DNA from: Solirubrobacteraceae bacterium
GTDB lineage: Bacteria; Actinomycetota; Thermoleophilia; Solirubrobacterales; Solirubrobacteraceae
Assembly: GCA_016463515.1 (NCBI GenBank)
Contig: JAEMRF010000001.1
Location: 1-64,000 of the forward strand
Direction of reading: 5' to 3'
Length of the DNA: 64,000 nucleotides
In this document: piece by piece, positions 10,784 to 56,645 of the stretch
How the letters are laid out: each line of letters starts with the position of its first letter
Numbering within the stretch: the first letter of the stretch is position 1
Program-made: the position numbers and the translations under genes
The notes under the pieces: model-generated
What the model saw: the letters and a program-made list of their open reading frames with translations, nothing else
Told to the model about the DNA's origin: nothing
The model's database searches: none

Positions 10784-11581
10784 ATGCATCGAATCCTCGT
10801 TTGGACAGGCAAGGGCGGCACCGGCAAGACGACCACCACGGCGAACCTCGGGCCCGAGCTCGCCCGCCTCGGGTACCGCGTGCTCCTTGTCGGCTTCGAC
10901 CCGCAAGGCGACCTGGAGACCACCTACGGCGTCGATGACGAAAACCGGTCGATCGTTCGCGTCGAGCAGCTCCTGGCCGGCGGTGTCGACCCAGTCGGGT
11001 CGATCCAAAGCATCGAGTTGCCCGGGTACCCCGGATCCCTGTCGCTACTGCCATGCTCGCCGGACCTCAACGGCGCGATCGCCGGCCTCGCTCGCCGACG
11101 GTTCACCGACCTCGACGTCCTGCTCGAGCACTTCGACGGCATCATGGACGTCGCGCTCATCGATACCCAGGGCGCGCTCAGCGCGATCTCGCACACCGCG
11201 GCGCGCGCAGCCGACAGCGTCATCTTCAGCATGGAGCCAGGCACGTACGAGTACCACGCGCTCTCACGCCGCCTCGCGGAGATCGAAGACATCAAGCGCG
11301 ACGAAGGATGGGCCATCGACCCGCTCGGCATCCTGTTCGTCCGCTGCGACAGCCGCAGCCGCCACATGCGCGAGTACCGCGAGCACTTCGCCGACGTCGA
11401 CGCGTTCGGCGAGGACATCGCGGTCTTCGATGGTCACATCCGCCAGCAGACCAGCGTGCGCGAGCACCCGCGCATGGGCAAGCCCACAGTGCTGGCCGCC
11501 CCCAGCAGCAACGTCGCGGCCGACTATCGCGCCCTCGCTGAGGAACTGGTCGCGCGCATGACGGCCAGCGACGCCTCGTGA
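10784..11581 (+). CDS. parA: ParA-family partition ATPase
   Basis: The 265-residue deviant Walker ATPase drives segregation of the replicon with ParB and parS. Walker A is GKGGTGKTT (9-17) with the signature first lysine. Walker A' is the GFDPQGD segment, where the usual first Asp is Gly. Walker B is the VALIDTQGAL segment. There is no N-terminal HTH domain, so it is closer to chromosomal/type Ib ParA than to P1 ParA. ATG 10784 begins exactly at the first beta strand, and TACGGT at 10771-10776 suggests a leaderless promoter. Its stop overlaps parB (GTGA at 11578). Confidence 0.93.
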   Translation: MHRILVWTGKGGTGKTTTTANLGPELARLGYRVLLVGFDPQGDLETTYGVDDENRSIVRVEQLLAGGVDPVGSIQSIELPGYPGSLSLLPCSPDLNGAIAGLARRRFTDLDVLLEHFDGIMDVALIDTQGALSAISHTAARAADSVIFSMEPGTYEYHALSRRLAEIEDIKRDEGWAIDPLGILFVRCDSRSRHMREYREHFADVDAFGEDIAVFDGHIRQQTSVREHPRMGKPTVLAAPSSNVAADYRALAEELVARMTASDAS

Positions 11582-12477
11582 CCGGCCCGCCACCGCTCCC
11601 CGGACGCAAACGCCCGAGGACCGGACGATCCCCAGGGGAGACGTTCGCCGCCCTCGCCGGCGACGAACGGCTTCGCACCGTCAGCGTCGACGCGATCGAA
11701 CCGAACCCCGACCAGCCACGCCAGCGGTTCGATCCGGAAGCACTCGACCTACTGGCCGGGTCGATTGCCGAGCGCGGCATCCTGCAACCGCCGACCGTCA
11801 TCGAGCACGAACCTGGCCGCTACCAGTTGGTCGCCGGAGAGCGTCGATGGCGCGCCAGCAAGCTCGCCGGGCTGCGCGAGATCGACGTGCTACTCCGCGA
11901 CCGCGACGCCCAGTCGACCACGCTCGAAGACGCCCTGCTGGAGAACACCGCCCGCCAAGACCTCACCCCGGTCGAAGAAGCACGCGCCTACCGGCTACTC
12001 ATCGACGACCTCGGTCTCACCATCTCTGAGCTCGCCCGCCGCATCGGACGCAGCCGACCCAGCGTCAGCAACCACCTACGACTCCTCGAACTCCCAGCGC
12101 CCGTCCTCACGCACGTCGAGACCGGGGCCCTGACCTTCGGTCACGCACGCGCGCTCATCACCGTCAGCGACACCGATCGCATCGAGCAGCTCGCAGCGAC
12201 AGCAGCTGTCGAAGGGTGGTCAGTACGACGCCTGGAATCCGAAGCCAAGACCCCGGCACCCAACACGCCGCCAGCGGGGCCGAAGCCCCGCGACACCCGC
12301 CCGCAATCGTCGGCCCACCCGGACCTCACCACGGCGATCAGCGATCACCTCGGCCAGCCCGTCGATGTGACGATCCAGTCGCACGCGGTGACCATGACCG
12401 CGGCACGCCCCGACGCCGCAAAGGCGCTCCTGGCAGCGCTCGGCGTCGACCCCGCCGCCCTCGAACGCGACGCCTAA
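11578..12477 (+). CDS. parB: ParB/Spo0J-type centromere-binding protein
   Basis: The 299-residue protein has the full ParB order: the N-terminal CTPase/ParB-N domain with GERRWRAS (87-94), the ENTARQDLTPVEEA segment (122-135), an HTH (about 149-172, SELARRIGRSRPSVSNHLRL) that should read parS, a proline-rich linker and a short C-terminal dimerisation region. It starts at GTG 11578, overlapping the parA stop. With the parS site upstream this is a complete partition cassette. Confidence 0.95.
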   Translation: MTGPPPLPGRKRPRTGRSPGETFAALAGDERLRTVSVDAIEPNPDQPRQRFDPEALDLLAGSIAERGILQPPTVIEHEPGRYQLVAGERRWRASKLAGLREIDVLLRDRDAQSTTLEDALLENTARQDLTPVEEARAYRLLIDDLGLTISELARRIGRSRPSVSNHLRLLELPAPVLTHVETGALTFGHARALITVSDTDRIEQLAATAAVEGWSVRRLESEAKTPAPNTPPAGPKPRDTRPQSSAHPDLTTAISDHLGQPVDVTIQSHAVTMTAARPDAAKALLAALGVDPAALERDA

Positions 12478-12890: not shown

Positions 12891-12903
12891 CCATTCACCA
12901 CCG
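12891..12903 (+). promoter_or_regulatory. CCATTCACCA start-associated element, copy 1
   Basis: CCATTCACCACCG, 28 bases before ATG 12932. It closes the non-coding region after the candidate RNA and is the leftmost copy. Confidence 0.8.
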
Positions 12904-13704: not shown

Positions 13705-13717
13705 CCATTCACCAACC
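13705..13717 (+). promoter_or_regulatory. CCATTCACCA start-associated element, copy 2
   Basis: CCATTCACCAACC, 17 bases before ATG 13735, followed by GAAGGGGGAGA. Confidence 0.85.
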
Positions 13718-14592: not shown

Positions 14593-14607
14593 CATCAATC
14601 GACGCAC

Positions 14608-14620
14608 CCATTCACCAACC
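14608..14620 (+). promoter_or_regulatory. CCATTCACCA start-associated element, copy 3
   Basis: CCATTCACCAACC, 27 bases before ATG 14648 and 15 bases after a hairpin. Confidence 0.85.
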
Positions 14621-14647
14621 AGCACGACCCCATGGAGGGGCTTTCGC

Positions 14648-15079
14648 ATGCACACCATCACGAACGAGATCACCGTCCTCACCGACCGCGAGGTCATCGC
14701 GTTCGAGGACAACTTCGACGCCGCGCTGTACCACGAGGTCGCCGAGATGCTCGGGCACAGCGTCGCCGCTGACATCGCCGACAGCACCATCGCCGAGATC
14801 GACCTCACGCCCGTCGACGAGCGCACCCAGGCACAGCGCGTCCAGGCACACATGGTCGGCCTCGGCGAGGCCAGCGGCCTCACCGTGCTGCACCTGCACA
14901 GCCGCCGCCACGCGGACATCGACGCCCAGCAGCGCCACGACGCCTACCTGCGCGACGAGCTCGCCGAGCTCGGCTGGGACGGAGACCGCCCCGTCGAGGA
15001 CTACTTCGCGTACGGCAAGCGCGTCCCGTTCACCGAGGAGACCGTCGACACGGCCGAGTGGATCGAAGTCGCCGCCTAG
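14648..15079 (+). CDS. Hypothetical protein
   Basis: The 143-residue acidic protein follows ATGGAGGGGCTT. It has a long N-terminal helix after two strands and a central segment TVLHLHSRRHADIDAQQRHD with several histidines. No family is recognised. It is a single-gene unit between hairpin 14561-14592 and hairpin 15103-15137. Confidence 0.6.
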   Translation: MHTITNEITVLTDREVIAFEDNFDAALYHEVAEMLGHSVAADIADSTIAEIDLTPVDERTQAQRVQAHMVGLGEASGLTVLHLHSRRHADIDAQQRHDAYLRDELAELGWDGDRPVEDYFAYGKRVPFTEETVDTAEWIEVAA

Positions 15080-16274: not shown

Positions 16275-16287
16275 CCATTCACCAACC
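16275..16287 (+). promoter_or_regulatory. CCATTCACCA start-associated element, copy 4
   Basis: CCATTCACCAACC, immediately followed by GGAAGGAA and 15 bases before ATG 16303. Confidence 0.87.
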
Positions 16288-16302
16288 GGAAGGAACTCCG
16301 AC

Positions 16303-19879: not shown

Positions 19880-19987
19880 CCGGCGCGCACGGAGACGCTC
19901 GCGTCCAGCACGGCGGCGCAGTACGTCGCCGCCACGAGGCTGCCCAAGGACCTGACCTGGCATCTCAACAGCAGCACCGAGCAGCAC

Positions 19988-20000
19988 CCATTCACCAACC
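19988..20000 (+). promoter_or_regulatory. CCATTCACCA start-associated element, copy 5
   Basis: CCATTCACCAACC, 26 bases before ATG 20027. The following bases (ATCACGACCCCAGGAAGGGG) closely match those after copy 3. Confidence 0.85.
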
Positions 20001-20026
20001 ATCACGACCCCAGGAAGGGGCCACAC

Positions 20027-20284
20027 ATGCAGATCACGACGATCGCGCTCGACCTCGTCTCACGCGAGCACATCGGCGACGCCGAAGACGCGCTGACCGA
20101 CGCCGCCATCAAGGCCGGCGTCACCGACACGCTGACCATCAACGCGTTCATCGACCTCGTCGCCGACGAGCTCGAGGCCGGGCACGGCGACAGCCTCATC
20201 GCCCGCGACCTCCTCGACACCCTCGAAGCGTGGGAGGACGACCCCGAGGCAGCACTCACCGACCTGTCCCTGGTCGCATCATGA
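20027..20284 (+). CDS. Small acidic hypothetical protein
   Basis: The 85-residue helical, strongly acidic product starts at an ATG set by AGGAAGGGG. It is coupled by ATGA to the next, basic, ORF. The acidic/basic pairing may mean that the two interact, which is only a guess. Confidence 0.6.
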   Translation: MQITTIALDLVSREHIGDAEDALTDAAIKAGVTDTLTINAFIDLVADELEAGHGDSLIARDLLDTLEAWEDDPEAALTDLSLVAS

Positions 20285-20899: not shown

Positions 20900-20912
20900 C
20901 CATTCACCACCA
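20900..20912 (+). promoter_or_regulatory. CCATTCACCA start-associated element, copy 6
   Basis: CCATTCACCACCA, followed by CGGAAGGAGG and 16 bases before ATG 20929. Confidence 0.83.
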
Positions 20913-20928
20913 CGGAAGGAGGCGCAGC

Positions 20929-22900: not shown

Positions 22901-23305
22901 GTGACCGGGTGCGACTGCCCGGTGATGAGCCCCCAACCTGCCAGCACCGGCCCCGGCGCGATGTACCCAGCGATCGTCACCGACCAGATCCGCGAGGCAC
23001 GCCGCGAACTCGTCGGCGCTCCGCTCGCACAGGTCGCCACCGAAGCGGCCTGCGCACTCGTCGACGCGTGCGCGGCCCTCGCCGAGATCGCCGGACGGCA
23101 GCGACTGACGGGCGAAGCACGAGACCGCCGCGCACAAGGGATCGACGCCCTGTCCTCGTGCGCTGCGGAGTACCTCGCCCTCGCAGACCTCTCGACCGCA
23201 CGCCGTGAAGCCGCACAGCGCGCAGCCGACGAGATCGTCCGCGCATTCGAAGACGAACGCGACGGCCGCCCCACCCATTCACCACCCACGGAAGGCAGCA
23301 CATGA
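22901..23305 (+). CDS. Hypothetical helical protein whose 3' end contains a start-associated element
   Basis: The 134-residue protein starts at GTG 22901 behind GGGAGGGGGG. It is helical and Ala-rich, with six cysteines. The last codons (PTHSPPTEGST) are encoded by element copy 7 and the following Shine-Dalgarno sequence. The stop overlaps ATG 23302. The tail is therefore probably an extension into what was intergenic leader. Confidence 0.6.
   Translation: MTGCDCPVMSPQPASTGPGAMYPAIVTDQIREARRELVGAPLAQVATEAACALVDACAALAEIAGRQRLTGEARDRRAQGIDALSSCAAEYLALADLSTARREAAQRAADEIVRAFEDERDGRPTHSPPTEGST
23275..23287 (+). promoter_or_regulatory. CCATTCACCA start-associated element, copy 7
   Basis: CCATTCACCACCC, 14 bases before ATG 23302 of the CsrA-like gene. 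It is the only perfect-core copy inside a coding frame. Confidence 0.82.
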
Positions 23306-23646
23306 ACCTCGACACCATGCCGACGGGCTGGCTCGTCATCGGGCGAAAGCCCGGCGAGCGCCTGCAGATCGGCAACCGCACCCTGACCTACGAAGGGCGT
23401 CTCGCCGACAGCGCCGGCGACGCGATCTTCACCCTCACCGACCCGAGCGGAGGGTGGCGGATCCTACGCCTGACCGCTGGTGAGGAACTGCACCTCCGCA
23501 GCGCCCAGTGCTTCATCCGATGGATGCCGCGCCGCGACGACTCGCGGAGCACCACCATCCGCCTGAACGTCCGCGCCCCCCGCGACCTGCGGATCGTCCG
23601 CTACGAGGTCCGCGACCGCGAGCCACGCCCGGCGGTGGCCGCATGA
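23302..23646 (+). CDS. CsrA-like RNA-binding protein with an insertion
   Basis: The 114-residue protein holds two separated pieces of the CsrA fold. Residues 10-30 (WLVIGRKPGERLQIGNRTLTY) match the opening strands LxLxRKxGExIxIG. Residues 84-103 (TTIRLNVRAPRDLRIVRYEV) match VRLGIxAPKEVxVHREEI. Between them lie about 50 residues with their own strand pattern, absent from normal 60-75 residue CsrA. CsrA dimers bind GGA motifs in mRNA leaders. Many leaders here contain GGAAGGA, including its own, so it may control this gene set. The function is inferred from fold resemblance only. Confidence 0.6.
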   Translation: MNLDTMPTGWLVIGRKPGERLQIGNRTLTYEGRLADSAGDAIFTLTDPSGGWRILRLTAGEELHLRSAQCFIRWMPRRDDSRSTTIRLNVRAPRDLRIVRYEVRDREPRPAVAA

Positions 23647-24350
23647 CAGTCACCGACCTCACCGGCCCCCTCCGGGAGCTCGCCGACCAACGGCCCCGGC
23701 TCGAACGGTGCGGCTGCCTGGCGGGCGAGACCTGCACACGCTGCGGCCGCGTCCGCGCGCTCGCCCGACGCATGCGCGAACAGGGAGCGACCGACGTCAC
23801 GATCGCGGCCCGGATCGGCGCCCCGGTCGAAGCCGTCGTCCTCCAGGAGACGCTCGACCACCGCGCCGAGACCCTGCAGACCGCCGGCCTCGACGAGCTC
23901 CGGCAACGCGAACGCATGATCACGGCGTTCGGGATCACGGGCGGACACGGCCCCGGCCGCATCCGCTCCGGGAAGGCCGTCCCCAACCGTCCGCTGCGCG
24001 AGGAATGGGAACGACGCCGCGTCGAAACCGAGCGCGCATCGCTCCTCGACGGCGAGGCCTACAAGGCGCACAGGTCCGCCAAACCGTTCCTGAACATGAT
24101 GGCCACGCGGATGGCCAGCAGCGGCCAGATGGACACCAGCCGCCTGCAGCGCGCCCTCGGCCTGATGCCCGAATCGTCCAGCACGAAGTCCCGCGTGCTC
24201 CGGGACGGGACCACCCGCCGCTACCGGCCCCGGAAGACCTACCGGCAGGTCATGCCCCTCGACATGGCCGAACGGATGGCCGCCGTGTGGGGGATGGACC
24301 TCCACGACCTCATCAACGACCACCCCGCCATGCAGAGCATGGCCACATAG
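23643..24350 (+). CDS. Hypothetical DNA-binding-like protein
   Basis: The 235-residue basic protein is coupled by ATGA to the CsrA-like gene. A zinc-knuckle-like C-x-C-x4-C-x2-C set (CGCLAGETCTRC, about 23-34) is followed by an HTH-like stretch (ALARRMREQGATDVTIAARI, then GAPVEAV). The C-terminal third (KTYRQVMPLDMAERMAAVWG then LHDLI) looks like a second helical domain. It could regulate transcription; the family is unknown. Confidence 0.6.
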   Translation: MTVTDLTGPLRELADQRPRLERCGCLAGETCTRCGRVRALARRMREQGATDVTIAARIGAPVEAVVLQETLDHRAETLQTAGLDELRQRERMITAFGITGGHGPGRIRSGKAVPNRPLREEWERRRVETERASLLDGEAYKAHRSAKPFLNMMATRMASSGQMDTSRLQRALGLMPESSSTKSRVLRDGTTRRYRPRKTYRQVMPLDMAERMAAVWGMDLHDLINDHPAMQSMAT

Positions 24351-25818: not shown

Positions 25819-25831
25819 CCATTCACCAACC
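25819..25831 (+). promoter_or_regulatory. CCATTCACCA start-associated element, copy 8
   Basis: CCATTCACCAACC, unusually far (77 bases) from ATG 25909. GGAAGGAG follows at normal distance, but no long ORF uses it. A second AGGAAGGGAGG stands nearer the gene. Confidence 0.8.
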
Positions 25832-25908
25832 GCGTTCACACACGGAAGGAGCCGAGGACTCTACACCGCGCCACAGGGCGCCCACCCAGGAAGGGAGGTG
25901 ACACACAC

Positions 25909-32782: not shown

Positions 32783-32795
32783 CCATTCACCACCC
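32783..32795 (+). promoter_or_regulatory. CCATTCACCA start-associated element, copy 9
   Basis: CCATTCACCACCC, 19 bases before ATG 32815. The next bases (ACGGAAGGCA) equal those after copy 7. Confidence 0.85.
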
Positions 32796-36930: not shown

Positions 36931-36943
36931 CCATTCACCAACA
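36931..36943 (+). promoter_or_regulatory. CCATTCACCA start-associated element, copy 10
   Basis: CCATTCACCAACA, 19 bases before ATG 36963, with GGAAGGAA between. Confidence 0.85.
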
Positions 36944-36962
36944 CCAGCAGGAAGGAACCACC

Positions 36963-37595: not shown

Positions 37596-37608
37596 CCATT
37601 CACCAACA
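37596..37608 (+). promoter_or_regulatory. CCATTCACCA start-associated element, copy 11
   Basis: CCATTCACCAACA, directly followed by GGAAGGAGG and 14 bases before ATG 37623. Confidence 0.87.
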
Positions 37609-37622
37609 GGAAGGAGGCGTGC

Positions 37623-40600
37623 ATGCCCACAGGCATGGACGCAAAGGGCGCTGCTCTCCTCGGCGGCGCCCTCAGCGACGAAGCGCTCGCTTCAAGTACC
37701 CGAGTCCTCGCCGGAGGCCGCCACGGCAGCGGAGTCGGCCTCCAGCAGTACTTCACCCCGCCAGAGGCCGCAGAACTCATCGCCGACGTCTTCGGCCGCA
37801 ACCTCACCGTGCTCGACCCAACCGCCGGCGCGGGAGACCTACTCGCTCCGTACCCGCACCACCTGCGATTCGGTATCGAGATCGACGCAGATCACGCCAC
37901 CCGCGGCACGTACCGCGCGCTCAACGGCGACGTGCAGAAGGCCCTCAGCCTGCTCCGCGTCGCCGGCGCGCAGTTCTCCCGAATCGTCAGCAACCCTCCC
38001 TTCGGTCTGACCTGGCAACACGCCACGATCGCCCGAGGAAAGACCGTCAACAGCAGCCACTGGATCACGCTCGCGTGCGTGGACCTTCTGCAGCGCAACG
38101 GCGTCGCCGCCGTGATCTGCGGCACCGATCGGCTGGATCGCGAACTCCTCGCCGATCAGGAGGTCAAAGCCGCCGCCTGGGCACGAGTCGACGTATCAGG
38201 CCCCCTGTTCGACGGGGTGGACCTGCCGACGAGCATCCTGCTTCTCACCTCGCCGCTCAACCGCACCGACGCGCCCATCGCATCCTTTACCGCGACGCGC
38301 GACGAGCTCACATCCCTCGCCGAAGATCTCACCGCGGCGATGTCGGCCGGATGTGGGCACGTGACCTCCGCCAGCTACCTCGACCCGCCGGCGGCAACGC
38401 TCGACACGATCATCGATGTCTACAAGCGGCGTCATCGCACCACCGGCCCGGCGAAGTACGACCTCCGCGTGGTCGCAGGGAAGCTGCGAGTCTCGCTCGG
38501 CGCCCTCGGCAAGCTGATCGACGGCTACCGGCCGGAGATGCAACTGCTGCGGCGCCTCGACCGACAGCCGGTCAGCTACTTCGCCGTCAACCAGCGCGAC
38601 TGGCACGAGGTCCGCCGACTCCTCGACGAGGACCTCATCCTCGCCGAACCGGGCACGGTCGAATCGGTCCAGGCCGCGATCGACGCGGCCAGCCTGCTCC
38701 TGCGGCCCATGTACCCGATCCCGTCACAGATGCGGCTCGGGTTCCTCGACGACCTCGACCGGATCCGGTGCGTCTCGCCAGACCCCGAGCGCGGTTTCGA
38801 AGCAGGAGAGCACTACCCGATCACCGTCAACTCCGCGGTCAGCGAATCGGAGACCGACCGGCCCGTCGAACGACGGGACAAGACCATCGAGATCCGCAAG
38901 GTCCGAACGCGCCGAAAGGCGCTGAAGATCAGCATCGACGGCAAGACGTTCGACGAATCCGCCGAGGACATCGAATACCTCGACCGGCACTTCGACATCC
39001 CCGACCCCGGTGACCTCGCGCGAGACCACCCGACCGAGCTCGCACGGGTCGAACAGGTGCTCGCAGACATCGAGGAGGAGTACGGCCCGGCAGATCCCGC
39101 CCGCTACAACCCCGACGGGTGGCAACTCCGTGACTGGCAGAAGGATGACCTGGCCAGGGCGATCCTCAAGCAGCGCGCCGTCCTGGCGTGGGACCCGGGC
39201 GGCGGCAAGTCCGCAGGACAGCTCATCTTCGCCGAGGCCTGCATCCGGCTCGGATACGCACGGCGGAACGTGGCGCTGATCATCGCGCCACAGGACCTCC
39301 ACGAGCAGTGGCAACGTGAAGCGCAGAAGTTCCTCGGCCGAACGTTGCAGACGATCTATACCCACGATGACGCCGTCCGAGCCCGTCGGCAGATCAAGGC
39401 TGGCGGCACGGGCATGTGGATCACGCACTACGAAGCGCTCTCCCTGGTCGGCACCAAGGACGACGTCCTCGATCCCGCTGCGATCACCCGGGATGGCGAA
39501 CACCGGATGCTCAACGAAGCGCGGATGCGGCGCTACCAGCAGGAGAACACCCCGGAGTGGCGGGCCCAAGCCCAGGCCCGGCACGAGGAGGCGATGCGCG
39601 CCTGGGCGGCAACGGTCGCAGACGTCCCGCCCGAAGATCGGTGGCGTCACATGCGACCGGTCGCCGAACAACCTGCGCCGCCCCCGACTGCCACCCTGAC
39701 CACCGAGGACGCCTGCCCGTCCTGCCTGTCGGAGATTGGCGGAGGCTCGTGGAACGGCACCGTATGTGCGGACTGCGGGCACATCCACTACCGGCGGCGC
39801 ATCAAGAGCATCGCGTCGCTGCTGTCGACCTCCTTCAAGCAGGGTGTGATCTGCGTTGACGAACTGTCGATGATCCGCGGGGACACCAGCCGCCGCTCGC
39901 TGGCCGTCCGTGGGTTGCGCGCAGCCTGCCGGTGCGGTGCGACCGGAACCCCGATCAGCAACTACATCAACGACGCGTTCTGGGGGCTCGGGTGGACGCT
40001 CGGCTGGGACACCGCCCGCTTCCCGTACTCCTACCAGGGAGGCAAAGCAAAGTTCGAAGAGGACTTCTGTGTCCTGGAATACCTGATGGGCCGCGCCGAC
40101 GATGGCGAACAAAACCAGGTCAAGCGCAGGAAGGTGATGCCCGAAGTCACCAACGTTTCGATGCTCTGGCGGCTGCTCGCGCTCGGCATGGTCCGGCGGC
40201 GAAAGGAGGAGATGGGCGATCTCGTCCAGCGCACCACGCACATCGTCGAAGTTCCAGCCGGCACCGCTCAGGCAGTAGTGCACGACCGATGGCTGACGGG
40301 GTTCGCACAGTTCTTCGAGGAGCGCAACCCAGGCCATCCGCTCGTCGAGGCGGGCCTGGTCGAGAAGTTCGAAGCAGCGCTGGGCATGTTGTGGAAGCTC
40401 GAGTACGCCGCCACGCTTCCCGAGGGTGACCCCGACCGAGAGTGGACGGGTGTCGAGAGCATCAGCAACTGGACGCCGAAGATCATCAAGGCGCTGGAGC
40501 TCATCGAGCAGCACGTACGCCAAGGCGAGAAGGTCCTCGTCGGATCTTGTCTCGTCGACCTCGGACCGCTCGTCTGTGACCTGCTCAACCAGCGCGGTAT

Positions 40601-41231
40601 CCGAGCCGGGCACATCACCGAGAAAGCCGCGGGCGGCAAGAGCAAGACGAAGAACCCGCGGGCCCGTGCGCGCGAGGTCACGCAGTTCATCAACGGTGAG
40701 AGCAGTGTGCTCTGCGCCGGCGTTCAGGCCATGAAACTGGGGCACAACCTCGATGTCGCCAGCACCGTCGTCCTCCTCGGCCTGCCGTGGAGCTTCGAGG
40801 CCTACAAGCAGTTCCTCGACCGTGTATGGCGACTGACCAGCACCAAGCCCGTGACGGTGTACGTCATCGTCGTCGCGGGCACCATTGATGTGCGCAAGCT
40901 GCAGCTGCTCGACGACAAGGGAGCTGCCTCGGACATCGCGCTGGACGGCCGCCTGGTCGACCAGGACCGCGAAGAGCACGACTGGGCAAAGACGCTGGCG
41001 GAGATGAAACGCCAGCGTCGCATCGGCGCGGGAGAGTCTGGCGACACGCTCGACGAGACGCTCATCGAGCAGGAGTGGACACGCAGCATCCAGCCAGCGC
41101 CCGCGCCAACACGAGACGAGCAGGATGCCCCCCCGGCCAAGGAGTCGACGCTCCGCGTCGTGCTCGTCGACACCGCGCCAACCGACGAGCCCATCGCCAC
41201 AGGTCAACAGACCTCGCTGTTCGCGCTGTAA
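37623..41231 (+). CDS. N6-adenine methyltransferase fused to a SNF2-type helicase
   Basis: The 1202-residue protein has two engines. Residues 1-420 are a gamma-type adenine methyltransferase: FTPP (44-47), SAM motif DPTAGAGD (65-72), catalytic NPPF (124-127). Residues about 490-1130 are an SF2/SNF2 ATPase: QLRDWQKDDL, Walker A DPGGGKS (near 529), DELS in place of DEAH (near 745), GATGTPISN, and the second RecA lobe with SSVLCAGVQAMKLGHNLD and the arginine-finger segment FLDRVWRLTS. A CPSC...CADC zinc insert sits at about 698-720. Related fusions include phage P1 DarB-like antirestriction proteins. Here it may modify or remodel incoming DNA. Confidence 0.85.
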   Translation: MPTGMDAKGAALLGGALSDEALASSTRVLAGGRHGSGVGLQQYFTPPEAAELIADVFGRNLTVLDPTAGAGDLLAPYPHHLRFGIEIDADHATRGTYRALNGDVQKALSLLRVAGAQFSRIVSNPPFGLTWQHATIARGKTVNSSHWITLACVDLLQRNGVAAVICGTDRLDRELLADQEVKAAAWARVDVSGPLFDGVDLPTSILLLTSPLNRTDAPIASFTATRDELTSLAEDLTAAMSAGCGHVTSASYLDPPAATLDTIIDVYKRRHRTTGPAKYDLRVVAGKLRVSLGALGKLIDGYRPEMQLLRRLDRQPVSYFAVNQRDWHEVRRLLDEDLILAEPGTVESVQAAIDAASLLLRPMYPIPSQMRLGFLDDLDRIRCVSPDPERGFEAGEHYPITVNSAVSESETDRPVERRDKTIEIRKVRTRRKALKISIDGKTFDESAEDIEYLDRHFDIPDPGDLARDHPTELARVEQVLADIEEEYGPADPARYNPDGWQLRDWQKDDLARAILKQRAVLAWDPGGGKSAGQLIFAEACIRLGYARRNVALIIAPQDLHEQWQREAQKFLGRTLQTIYTHDDAVRARRQIKAGGTGMWITHYEALSLVGTKDDVLDPAAITRDGEHRMLNEARMRRYQQENTPEWRAQAQARHEEAMRAWAATVADVPPEDRWRHMRPVAEQPAPPPTATLTTEDACPSCLSEIGGGSWNGTVCADCGHIHYRRRIKSIASLLSTSFKQGVICVDELSMIRGDTSRRSLAVRGLRAACRCGATGTPISNYINDAFWGLGWTLGWDTARFPYSYQGGKAKFEEDFCVLEYLMGRADDGEQNQVKRRKVMPEVTNVSMLWRLLALGMVRRRKEEMGDLVQRTTHIVEVPAGTAQAVVHDRWLTGFAQFFEERNPGHPLVEAGLVEKFEAALGMLWKLEYAATLPEGDPDREWTGVESISNWTPKIIKALELIEQHVRQGEKVLVGSCLVDLGPLVCDLLNQRGIRAGHITEKAAGGKSKTKNPRARAREVTQFINGESSVLCAGVQAMKLGHNLDVASTVVLLGLPWSFEAYKQFLDRVWRLTSTKPVTVYVIVVAGTIDVRKLQLLDDKGAASDIALDGRLVDQDREEHDWAKTLAEMKRQRRIGAGESGDTLDETLIEQEWTRSIQPAPAPTRDEQDAPPAKESTLRVVLVDTAPTDEPIATGQQTSLFAL

Positions 41232-43621: not shown

Positions 43622-43634
43622 CCATTCACCACAC
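43622..43634 (+). promoter_or_regulatory. CCATTCACCA start-associated element, copy 12
   Basis: CCATTCACCACAC, 14 bases before ATG 43649 of the annealing-protein gene, with GGAGGAA between. Confidence 0.85.
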
Positions 43635-49940: not shown

Positions 49941-50173
49941 TGCAGCTCACCGGCATCAAGAAGGGCGACGTCGTACGCGTTGACCACGGAGGCCGCCGCT
50001 TCATGGCGTGGGTCGATGCGCATCACCCGGCGGCACCGGGCATCCAGGCTCGGTTGACCATCACCCCGATTACCGGCGGCATCACCTGGCGCGAAGCAAA
50101 AGCCAGCGAGATCGTCGGCCACTACCGCCGCAGCAAACAGAGCACCGACCACCTCGGGAAGGGGCTGACATGA
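49940..50173 (+). CDS. Small SH3-like hypothetical protein
   Basis: The 77-residue protein opens GIKKGDVVRVDHGGRRFMAW, typical of SH3-like or KOW-like barrels. It is coupled to dnaX by ATGA, so it may be co-translated with the clamp loader. Confidence 0.55.
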   Translation: MQLTGIKKGDVVRVDHGGRRFMAWVDAHHPAAPGIQARLTITPITGGITWREAKASEIVGHYRRSKQSTDHLGKGLT

Positions 50174-51339
50174 GCACACCCACACCAGCGGCCGTTCGCA
50201 AGGAGGTCGCCGCACACGGCGAGCAGGTCGACGCCGAGCGTGAAGCCGAACAGTCTCTCGCGCGCCGTTGCCGCCCCCGGACGTTCACGCAGTGTGCCGG
50301 CCAGGATCTCGCCGCCACCATGCTTCGTCGCGTCGCAGCCAACCGTGCCCCGCACCACGCCTACATGTTCGTGGGGCCGCGCGGCACCGGCAAGACCACC
50401 ATGGCCCGTGTGTTCGCGGCCGCCCTGAACTGTCCGGAAAGCGACGCCGGGGAGCCCTGCGGGGCCTGCTCAACGTGCGAGGCCATCGCGCACGGCAGCG
50501 ACATCGACGTTGTCGAGATCGACGCGGCCTCACATAACAAGGTCGAAGACGCCCGCGACCTGGCGAGCAAGGTCGGGCTCGCTGCGGTCGGCGGCCGCTT
50601 CCGCGTGTTCATCCTCGACGAGGCACACATGCTGACCACCCAGGCATGGAATGCGCTGCTGAAGACGCTCGAAGAGCCACCCGCCGGCAGCGTGTTCATC
50701 CTCGCGACGACCGAAGCGGGGAAGGTCATCGCGACCGTCGAGGACCGCTGCCACCGGGTGAACTTCACCCGGCCAGCAACCGGGACGCTGAGCATCAAGC
50801 TGCAAGAGATCGCGCTGACCGAGGGCATCCACCTCGCAGAAGACGCCCGGCTGTTGATCGCCCGATACGCCCAGGGGTCCTACCGCCGCGGACTCGGCGC
50901 GCTCGAGCAGGTCGCCGCGCTGGCCGAACCCGGGCAGGTCATCGACGCCACACTCGCTAGCCGGGCGCTCGGCGCTGCCGACGCACGACTCAGCGCCGCC
51001 CTGTTCGCCGCGATCGTCGGCGCCCATCACACCGACGCGCTCGCGCTCATCGCACAAGCCGTGGCAGATGGTCTCGAACCGTCGGCCATCTTGCGCGACC
51101 TCGAGCGCCACTGCCGTGAGGTGCTCATCTGCACCACCGTGGGAGCGGTGCCCGACTCACTGGTCTACAGCGCCGAGCAACGCGATCTCCTCGCAGCCCA
51201 CGCACAGGCCGTCACCGCCCAACACCCGATCGGCGTCATCGACCGGATCGCCGCGGCCCTGCGCGCGATCAGCGACGGGGCGGACGCCCGGACGCAGCTG
51301 GAGGTATGCGCCCTGAACCCGTTCGGCGCAACGCGATGA
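50170..51339 (+). CDS. dnaX: DNA polymerase III gamma/tau-like clamp-loader subunit
   Basis: The 389-residue AAA+ ATPase shows Walker A GPRGTGKT (69-76), the four-cysteine zinc module C88, C97, C100, C103, Walker B DEAH (150-153), sensor 1 ATTEAGK, and DRCHR (192-196) in place of the SRC arginine-finger motif. There is no tau-specific C-terminal region, so it corresponds to gamma (three-domain) length. It is co-translated with a delta-like gene (ATGA at 51336). Host chromosomes carry their own dnaX, so this is an element-specific loader part. Confidence 0.9.
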   Translation: MSTPTPAAVRKEVAAHGEQVDAEREAEQSLARRCRPRTFTQCAGQDLAATMLRRVAANRAPHHAYMFVGPRGTGKTTMARVFAAALNCPESDAGEPCGACSTCEAIAHGSDIDVVEIDAASHNKVEDARDLASKVGLAAVGGRFRVFILDEAHMLTTQAWNALLKTLEEPPAGSVFILATTEAGKVIATVEDRCHRVNFTRPATGTLSIKLQEIALTEGIHLAEDARLLIARYAQGSYRRGLGALEQVAALAEPGQVIDATLASRALGAADARLSAALFAAIVGAHHTDALALIAQAVADGLEPSAILRDLERHCREVLICTTVGAVPDSLVYSAEQRDLLAAHAQAVTAQHPIGVIDRIAAALRAISDGADARTQLEVCALNPFGATR

Positions 51340-52310
51340 GCGGGCACGCCTTGCTGTGCGGCAACGACCGCTCCTCACTCATCGACGAACGCAACGCCCG
51401 CATCTCGCGCGCCCGTAATGGCGGCATGGATGTGCGCAGGATCGATCTGGCGGAGGACGGCGCACTTGATGACCTCCTGGCAGCGACAGCCGAGCTGAGC
51501 CTGCTGGCCACCGCACGGCTGATCATTGGCGAAGGCGCCGAGACCCTCGGTGCGAAGGACATCACCACCAGCGTCCGAGAGACCCTCGCCGCCCCGGTCG
51601 ACGACGTCGCGATCCTCCTGGTCGCCCACGACAGCAAGAAGGCACGCTGCCCCAAGGCGCTCAAGGACGCAGTGAAAGACGGGGGAGGGGAGGTCGTCAC
51701 CCGACAGACACTCAAGCCACGAGAAGCCACAGCCGCGGCGAGGATGGTGGTCAGCCAGGTCGCGCAGCTCGCGATCAGCGAACGGGACGCCTCACGGCTG
51801 GCCGCCGGATGCGGCAACAGTCTCGCGCGGATTCGGCGACGCTGCGAACAACTCGCCGTGTTCACTGAGCTCGGCTCAGCCGCGGCCAATACAGAACTCA
51901 TCGACCTCGTCTGCGGCAACGCAGACCAGCACATGTGGGACGCACTCGACGCCCTCGCCGCCGGCGACATCGCCACGGTGCTCAACGAGCATGAGCAGCT
52001 TGCCGAACGCGGCCAAGACGGCGGGCTGCTCACCATGGCCATCCGGCGCGCTCGTGACCTCGCGACCGTCCGAACGCTCCTCGACCAAGGGCTCGGAACC
52101 CCGCAGATCGCAGAACACACCGGAGCGCACCCGTTCGTCACCGAGCAGCGCGTCCGCGTCGCCGGAAGGCTCACGGGCACCCAGATCGCCACGGCGCTCG
52201 TCCACCTCGGCGAAGGAGAACACGCCGCCCGGGGAGGCACCCACCTCGCGCCGCGGACGGCAACCACGATCGCCCTGCGCGACGCCGCCAACGCGCTCGC
52301 CTCGACATGA
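51336..52310 (+). CDS. holA: DNA polymerase III delta-like clamp-loader subunit
   Basis: The 324-residue protein has the delta subunit pattern: a divergent AAA+ lid without Walker A, a central ISERDASRLAAGCGNSLARI segment, then the collar signature MWDALDALAAGDIATVLNEH and HPFVTEQRVRVAGRLT. In delta, the N-terminal domain opens the sliding clamp. The overlapping dnaX gene supports the assignment. No delta-prime gene is visible nearby. Confidence 0.8.
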   Translation: MSGHALLCGNDRSSLIDERNARISRARNGGMDVRRIDLAEDGALDDLLAATAELSLLATARLIIGEGAETLGAKDITTSVRETLAAPVDDVAILLVAHDSKKARCPKALKDAVKDGGGEVVTRQTLKPREATAAARMVVSQVAQLAISERDASRLAAGCGNSLARIRRRCEQLAVFTELGSAAANTELIDLVCGNADQHMWDALDALAAGDIATVLNEHEQLAERGQDGGLLTMAIRRARDLATVRTLLDQGLGTPQIAEHTGAHPFVTEQRVRVAGRLTGTQIATALVHLGEGEHAARGGTHLAPRTATTIALRDAANALAST

Positions 52311-53287: not shown

Positions 53288-53300
53288 CCATTCACCAACC
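53288..53300 (+). promoter_or_regulatory. CCATTCACCA start-associated element, copy 14
   Basis: CCATTCACCAACC, 11 bases before ATG 53312 of a 21-codon ORF. It supports translation of that ORF. Confidence 0.83.
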
Positions 53301-54518: not shown

Positions 54519-54531
54519 CCATTCACCAACC
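54519..54531 (+). promoter_or_regulatory. CCATTCACCA start-associated element, copy 15
   Basis: CCATTCACCAACC, 18 bases before ATG 54550, with CGAAGGGAGA between. Confidence 0.86.
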
Positions 54532-56632: not shown

Positions 56633-56645
56633 CCATTCACCACCG
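56633..56645 (+). promoter_or_regulatory. CCATTCACCA start-associated element, copy 16
   Basis: CCATTCACCACCG, 14 bases before ATG 56660, with CGGAGGA between. It is the rightmost copy. Confidence 0.83.

Follow-up and report, generated by a model that had tools for sequence, protein, structure and literature searches.

Gene organization of the locus

The window, meaning the whole 64,000-nt stretch of DNA that was analysed, contains a gene for a 114-aa protein, P0001, placed between two genes without a family assignment. Its start and stop codons overlap both neighbors by 4 nt each (Table 1). The open reading frame begins with ATG behind a good ribosome-binding site and has a good coding score of 40.4. 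In the downstream neighbor, a CxC...CxxC cluster and an HTH-like stretch were seen by eye near the N terminus.

The surroundings resemble a mobile element. They encode ParA/ParB (10784-12477), a UvrD-type helicase, a 1202-aa protein with N6-methylase and SNF2 helicase domains (37623-41231), SSB, DnaX-like and delta-like clamp-loader proteins, and a primase-like zinc-ribbon protein. The two clamp-loader genes are adjacent (50170-52310). The leader of the 1202-aa protein carries CCATTCACCA followed directly by GGAAGGAGG.

The tyrosine integrase of the larger region was located at 98720-99832 of contig C331. It is adjoined by a further integrated element of about 14 kb, which has its own tyrosine integrase and a Toprim/DUF3631 protein and is bracketed by a 43-bp perfect direct repeat (99884-99926 and 113870-113912; L053, L054), the latter copy lying inside a tRNA-Arg. 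A run of very long proteins, which look secreted from their signal-like N termini as judged by eye, occupies 64636-92490 of the same contig (L051, L053). Comparable long proteins flank the tandem CsrA gene on both sides in a relative described below (G155:C183).

Table 1. Coordinates in the window of the P0001 locus, its predicted CsrA units and the copies of CCATTCACCA.
Feature	Position	Strand	Basis or remark
Upstream gene, 134 aa, no family	22901..23305	+	4-nt overlap; 3' end holds CCATTCACCA
CCATTCACCA before P0001 gene	23275..23284	+	27 nt from start
Ribosome-binding site ACGGAAGG	23288..23295	+	before P0001 gene; ANGGA match
Putative tandem-CsrA gene (P0001, 114 aa)	23302..23646	+	ORF; Pfam CsrA E 1.2e-6, two stretches
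CsrA unit 1, residues ~10-48, beta1-beta4, without beta5	23329..23445	+	AF2 strands; hhalign
beta1 of unit 1, L11-K16	23332..23349	+	R15 (= R6) and K16 (= R7) kept
CsrA unit 2, residues ~50-106, beta1-beta5 and short helix	23449..23619	+	AF2 strands; hhalign
beta1 of unit 2, W52-E61	23455..23484	+	R6 -> L57, R7 -> T58 lost
beta4-beta5 of unit 2	23560..23610	+	R87 (= R31), R94 (= K38), R100 (= R44), E102 (= E46)
Downstream gene, 235 aa, no family match	23643..24350	+	4-nt overlap with P0001 gene
CCATTCACCA	12891..12900	+	
CCATTCACCA	13705..13714	+	
CCATTCACCA	14608..14617	+	
CCATTCACCA	16275..16284	+	GGAAGGA at 16288
CCATTCACCA	19988..19997	+	
CCATTCACCA	20900..20909	+	GGAAGGA at 20914
CCATTCACCA	25819..25828	+	GGAAGGA at 25844; nearest called start 90 nt on
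CCATTCACCA	32783..32792	+	
CCATTCACCA	36931..36940	+	GGAAGGA at 36950
CCATTCACCA	37596..37605	+	GGAAGGA at 37609
CCATTCACCA	43622..43631	+	
CCATTCACCA	53288..53297	+	uncalled ATG ~24 nt downstream
CCATTCACCA	54519..54528	+	
CCATTCACCA	56633..56642	+	

Two predicted CsrA units in P0001 and its relatives

By profile comparison, P0001 is a real, divergent relative of CsrA, and the match is not a chance one. The Pfam family PF02599 was matched in two stretches at 28.8 bits (E 1.2e-6), above the cut-off of 27. The scores against the NCBIfam csrA equivalogs NF002469 and TIGR00202 were 18.7 against a cut-off of 73 bits and 13.8 against 70.1, both below. When the family profile of P0001 was compared to solved structures, chains of CsrA, RsmA/RsmE and RsmN were matched, with a best E value of 4.6e-5. 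The original prediction of a CsrA-like reading frame that holds both CsrA signatures apart from each other was thus confirmed; the N-terminal signature LVIGRKPGERLQIG and the C-terminal signature IRLNVRAPRDLRIVRYEV lie about 60 residues apart, where about 15 is usual. The same prediction explained this distance by a 50-residue insertion, and this part was not supported. The segment between the signatures is better read, on profile and model comparison, as most of a second CsrA copy, so that P0001 has a tandem build and is not a canonical csrA product of a single unit of about 61 aa.

The family profile of unit 1 aligned to CsrA 1-38 with an hhalign probability of 92%, and that of unit 2 to CsrA 3-49 with 96%. 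The N-terminal half of unit 2 from P0001 alone gave no significant CsrA match (hhalign 0.6%), and unit 1 did not detect unit 2 directly in the profile comparison. As that half is not significant by itself, the tandem reading leans on the relatives and on the order of the predicted strands.

Three kinds of search, with P0001, for the CsrA family and with a profile, covered the same taxonomic family and gave two relatives in G016 (C15 and C18), two in G155 (C92 and C183) and one in G004 (C23); G155:C92 corresponds to JAKAED010000038 of the 'Actinomycetes bacterium' MAG WY1.bin120. In three of these reading frames the CsrA HMM matched twice at overlapping profile positions: 2-35 and 17-46 in G155:C92, 2-35 and 20-46 in G155:C183, and 1-34 and 3-52 in G004:C23. 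An insertion into one CsrA cannot give such a pattern, and it therefore indicates a tandem fusion. The G016:C18 protein showed a contiguous CsrA match (profile 6-44) wholly inside unit 2, with an extra weak beta1-like match upstream of it (profile 2-19, 4.1 bits).

The fused double CsrA of G004 (C23:61293-61598; L055:9293-9664) has as its neighbor the divergent gene that also stands beside canonical csrA in G001, and this places it at the ordinary csrA locus. The G004 genome is 93% complete and gave no other CsrA match above noise; the fusion is probably independent of the P0001 type. The host genome of P0001 also carries a canonical csrA on contig C79.

Other candidates were rejected. Weak CsrA profile matches in many genomes of the class (~18-20 bits, profile 7-33) fell within open frames of about 480-1000 codons and look like chance. 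Several matches to P0001 across the order at E ~0.01 were also set aside on inspection of the sequence; those in G133, G130 and G093 were regions in unrelated proteins or in other frames. Close sequence relatives of P0001 were found in neither phages, viral contigs nor genome contigs, nor meaningfully in plasmids, and the viral contigs searched gave no close sequence relatives of the P0001 relatives or of the downstream neighbor.

Predicted structure

The AF2 model of P0001, built on a five-member family alignment, reached a pLDDT of 80.1 and a pTM of 0.70. Strands were predicted at residues 11-15, 20-23, 26-33 and 40-46 in unit 1, and at 52-58, 62-65, 70-75, 86-91 and 98-101 in unit 2, followed by a short helical turn. 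CsrA itself runs beta1, beta2, beta3, beta4, beta5 and helix (PMC3791407), and the modelled order in P0001 would correspond to beta1-4 and then beta1-5. The model contains no helix of four or more residues, and none of the RsmN/RsmF type between beta2 and beta3. A single-sequence model of the G004 fusion was poor (pLDDT 58) and gave the same 4+5 strand order.

A Foldseek search of the PDB with the P0001 model returned unrelated beta proteins and no CsrA (best E 0.07); searching one chain at a time says little about a dimer-like fold. Among viral predicted structures (BFVD), nine matches were obtained at E < 1e-3, most of them nearly whole-length. They include a 114-aa 'Carbon storage regulator' from an uncultured phage (TM 0.67). 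The best was A0A6G5YEX0, of 88 aa (TMt 0.84, rmsd 1.5), which was also the top match of the G004 model (E 0.026). Judging from these models, phage proteins of the same build are probably already in the databases, unnamed.

RNA-contact residues

In RsmA, each sheet has beta2-3-4 of one chain at its center and beta1 and beta5 of the partner chain at the sides, and an intersubunit salt bridge joins Arg8 and Glu64 (PMC3791407), which were mapped here to CsrA R6 and E46. RNA is contacted by beta1, by the equivalents of R31, K38 and R44, and by beta5 (PMC3791407, PMC3856055). Among the canonical CsrAs compared, R6, R44 and E46 were invariant in 67/67.

The R6-E46 pair is kept across the fusion in P0001 as R15 and E102. 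Departures from CsrA were noted at T5 (Gly14) and H43 (Val99). In beta1 of unit 2, position 6 is Leu in five of the six fused proteins and Met in the other. The alignment of this strand was set by hand for the residue comparison, and the automatic alignment of the tandem relatives agrees at L57, which is an invariant column there. The original prediction counted a loss of the RNA-contact arginines in all homologues as evidence against itself; R87, R94 and R100 are invariant among the tandem relatives, and Arg occupies the R31, K38 and R44 equivalents of unit 2 in all six fused proteins.

As read from these positions, P0001 appears to retain the residues of exactly one composite site and to have lost those of the other. 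This pattern is as expected if the fusion replaces the homodimer. In the two G016 paralogues, R6 is lost in unit 1 too (R6 -> V), and the family may therefore not all bind GGA.

The CCATTCACCA element and the leaders of the gene set

CCATTCACCA occurs in 15 exact copies, all on the + strand and upstream of starts, between 12.9 and 56.7 kb of the window; about two would be expected even with one mismatch allowed. The rest of the 114,830-bp contig has none, and no CCATTCACCA with GGAAGG behind it turned up in other parts of the genome. In viral contigs, the same combination was matched 24 times, never more than once per contig, a result that looks like chance. Most copies stand 27-41 nt from the start and two at 86-90 nt, one of the two with an uncalled ATG 24 nt beyond it. 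Two leaders, at 14604-14666 and 19984-20045, share 81% of their sequence outside CCATTCACCA.

The leaders with CCATTCACCA differ from the rest. In the -25 to -4 region of the 14 called genes whose leaders start with CCATTCACCA, GGA was present in all 14, GGAAGG in nine and GGAAGGA in four, compared to 39, five and none of 67 other genes of the element. The enrichment of GGAAGG (9/14 vs 5/67) has p = 1.1e-5. ANGGA was found in 12/14 leaders with CCATTCACCA vs 21/67 others, a count in which AAGGA in a ribosome-binding site satisfies ANGGA alone. In the P0001 leader, the ANGGA site is ACGGA (23288-23292), over the ribosome-binding site.

These counts bear on three earlier claims. That the P0001 gene itself has CCATTCACCA was borne out. 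The claim that GGAAGGA directly follows CCATTCACCA in most leaders was overstated: the exact heptamer follows in only 5/15 sites, at a variable distance of 3-23 nt, and in most leaders the -25 to -4 region has the shorter GGAAGG or GGA. The idea of an autoregulated controller of the whole set agrees with the frequency of ANGGA and with its presence in P0001's own leader, but GGA triplets are mostly paired in the predicted folds and are not enriched in hairpin loops (6/25 vs 14/101, p = 0.23). No consistent pairing of CCATTCACCA was seen in these folds, and nothing here connects CCATTCACCA itself with CsrA binding.

The difference between the leaders may be only one of ribosome-binding-site strength. 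The chances are about even that the GGAAGG leaders are simply strong ribosome-binding sites of first genes and that CCATTCACCA serves, independently of P0001, as a promoter or as a signal for translation start. GGAAGG overlaps the Shine-Dalgarno sequence, and the other gapped genes frequently have GGA too (23/32). The lack of hairpin-loop enrichment points the same way, as does the position of CCATTCACCA, 24-41 nt ahead of most starts in leaders that share no further conserved block upstream. Start-associated repeats of unknown mechanism also exist in Cluster K mycobacteriophages (PMC3203893). However, GGAAGG is specifically enriched after CCATTCACCA even when compared to gapped genes (9/14 vs 2/32, p = 8e-5), and this explanation does not account for the presence of a conserved RNA-binding regulator on the element. 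It concerns the targets only and is compatible with the tandem architecture of P0001. On the sequence of the leaders, regulation by P0001 of its own leader is plausible, and regulation of the whole CCATTCACCA gene set is possible. Single-site repression at a ribosome-binding site has a precedent in E. coli hfq, as cited in PMC3856055 (its reference 80).

A probable single-chain CsrA with one predicted RNA site

The textbook form of CsrA is a homodimer with two RNA sites, able to bridge two GGA sites. In the ordinary dimer, beta1 and beta5 are swapped between the chains, and each RNA site is made of beta1 of one chain and beta5 of the other.

The homology, the duplication, the predicted strand count and the residue pattern of P0001, all obtained by computation, point to a single-chain CsrA pseudo-dimer with two units head to tail and one predicted RNA site. 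We give this reading a probability of roughly 70%. From it we infer how the fold would assemble, whether and where it would bind RNA, and in which direction it would regulate. Unit 1 would lack beta5 and the C-terminal helix, and unit 2 would be complete. The surviving RNA site would be formed by beta1 of unit 1 together with beta4, the loop and beta5 of unit 2. The second site would have decayed, with R6 and R7 missing from beta1 of unit 2 and its partner, beta5 of unit 1, gone. P0001 would then act as an element-borne, one-site GGA-binding protein on leaders whose ribosome-binding site overlaps an ANGGA, its own leader plausibly among them. It probably controls translation, which binding would lower or tune. 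Bridging of two GGA sites, which normal CsrA performs, would be impossible with a single site.

It is unlikely that P0001 is instead a tandem CsrA-like protein which has lost GGA RNA binding and serves as a scaffold or antagonist, for example of the host CsrA or FliW. The divergent beta1 of the G016 paralogues (R6 to V) and the family scores far under the NCBIfam equivalog cut-off (18.7 vs 73 bits) would fit such a role, but P0001 keeps all basic RNA-contact positions of one complete site (R15, K16, R87, R94 and R100), and the last three do not vary. It is very improbable that 50 unrelated residues interrupt one CsrA domain, perhaps in the manner of RsmN/RsmF: the Pfam and HMM matches of P0001 itself do cover only non-overlapping halves (profile 2-16 and 29-47) and RsmN shows that CsrA tolerates insertions (PMC3791407), but the double matches in the relatives already contradict it, unit 2 of G016:C18 is a contiguous CsrA, and the model shows the segment as beta-strands that follow one another as in CsrA, the sole helix being a three-residue turn at 66-68.

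A wider form of the single-chain reading is doubtful. It holds that one-site, single-chain CsrA arose at least two times in this actinobacterial group, once at the ordinary csrA locus of G004 and once in a divergent lineage represented in G000, G016 and G155, and that here it forms an element-wide translational switch together with a CCATTCACCA/ANGGA leader code. If true, bridging would be impossible for such a switch, and sponge RNAs with multiple sites may titrate it less easily.

Two-site RNA bridging has been studied with engineered heterodimers. A natural CsrA of one chain, with one site kept and one decayed, would separate dimer folding from such bridging. The poor CsrA scores of these proteins and their 'split' appearance would be explained as well. 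The same architecture at the ordinary csrA locus of G004, where no other CsrA was found, raises the question of whether one site is enough for CsrA function.

Comparison with known systems

The literature searched, of which coverage was partial, contained no description of a fused or tandem CsrA. A close case is the G004 protein, which likewise has unit 1 followed by unit 2, with R6 lost (to Met) in unit 2. Unlike P0001, it is much closer to canonical CsrA and is chromosomal.

With CsrA/RsmA (PF02599; E. coli CsrA, P. aeruginosa RsmA, P. protegens RsmE), P0001 shares the beta1 and beta5 signatures, the A-P-R/K turn, the R44 equivalent and the R6-E46 pair, and its best solved-structure matches are CsrA, RsmA and RsmE chains. 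Those proteins are domain-swapped homodimers of about 61 aa per chain with two RNA sites, whereas P0001 is a 114-aa chain of two units with one predicted site. RsmN/RsmF of P. aeruginosa is also a CsrA relative with an extra mid-sequence and an altered chain route. Its extra part is a 16-residue helix between beta2 and beta3 in a protein that is still a two-site homodimer (PMC3791407), whereas the extra part of P0001 is predicted to be the strands of a second copy.

The csrA genes of phages and plasmids (PMC7366521; phrog_9500, phrog_5527) resemble the P0001 gene as CsrA-family regulators on mobile elements. The viral-contig copies examined were single-domain proteins, of 59-81 aa except for one whose frame is extended at the N terminus, in contrast to the tandem P0001; phage proteins of tandem size are suggested only by the structural matches in BFVD.

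The start-associated sequence (SAS) of Cluster K mycobacteriophages resembles CCATTCACCA in being short, non-palindromic and repeated with one orientation ahead of many non-structural genes. It is the 13-bp GGGATAGGAGCCC, lies 3-7 bp from the start and contains the ribosome-binding site (PMC3203893). CCATTCACCA differs from it in sequence and mostly stands 24-41 nt upstream, apart from the ribosome-binding site.

Taken with the sequence and model comparisons, the better description of P0001 is that of two CsrA units in tandem on a single chain, with one RNA site predicted, and as such a variant of the known CsrA family.
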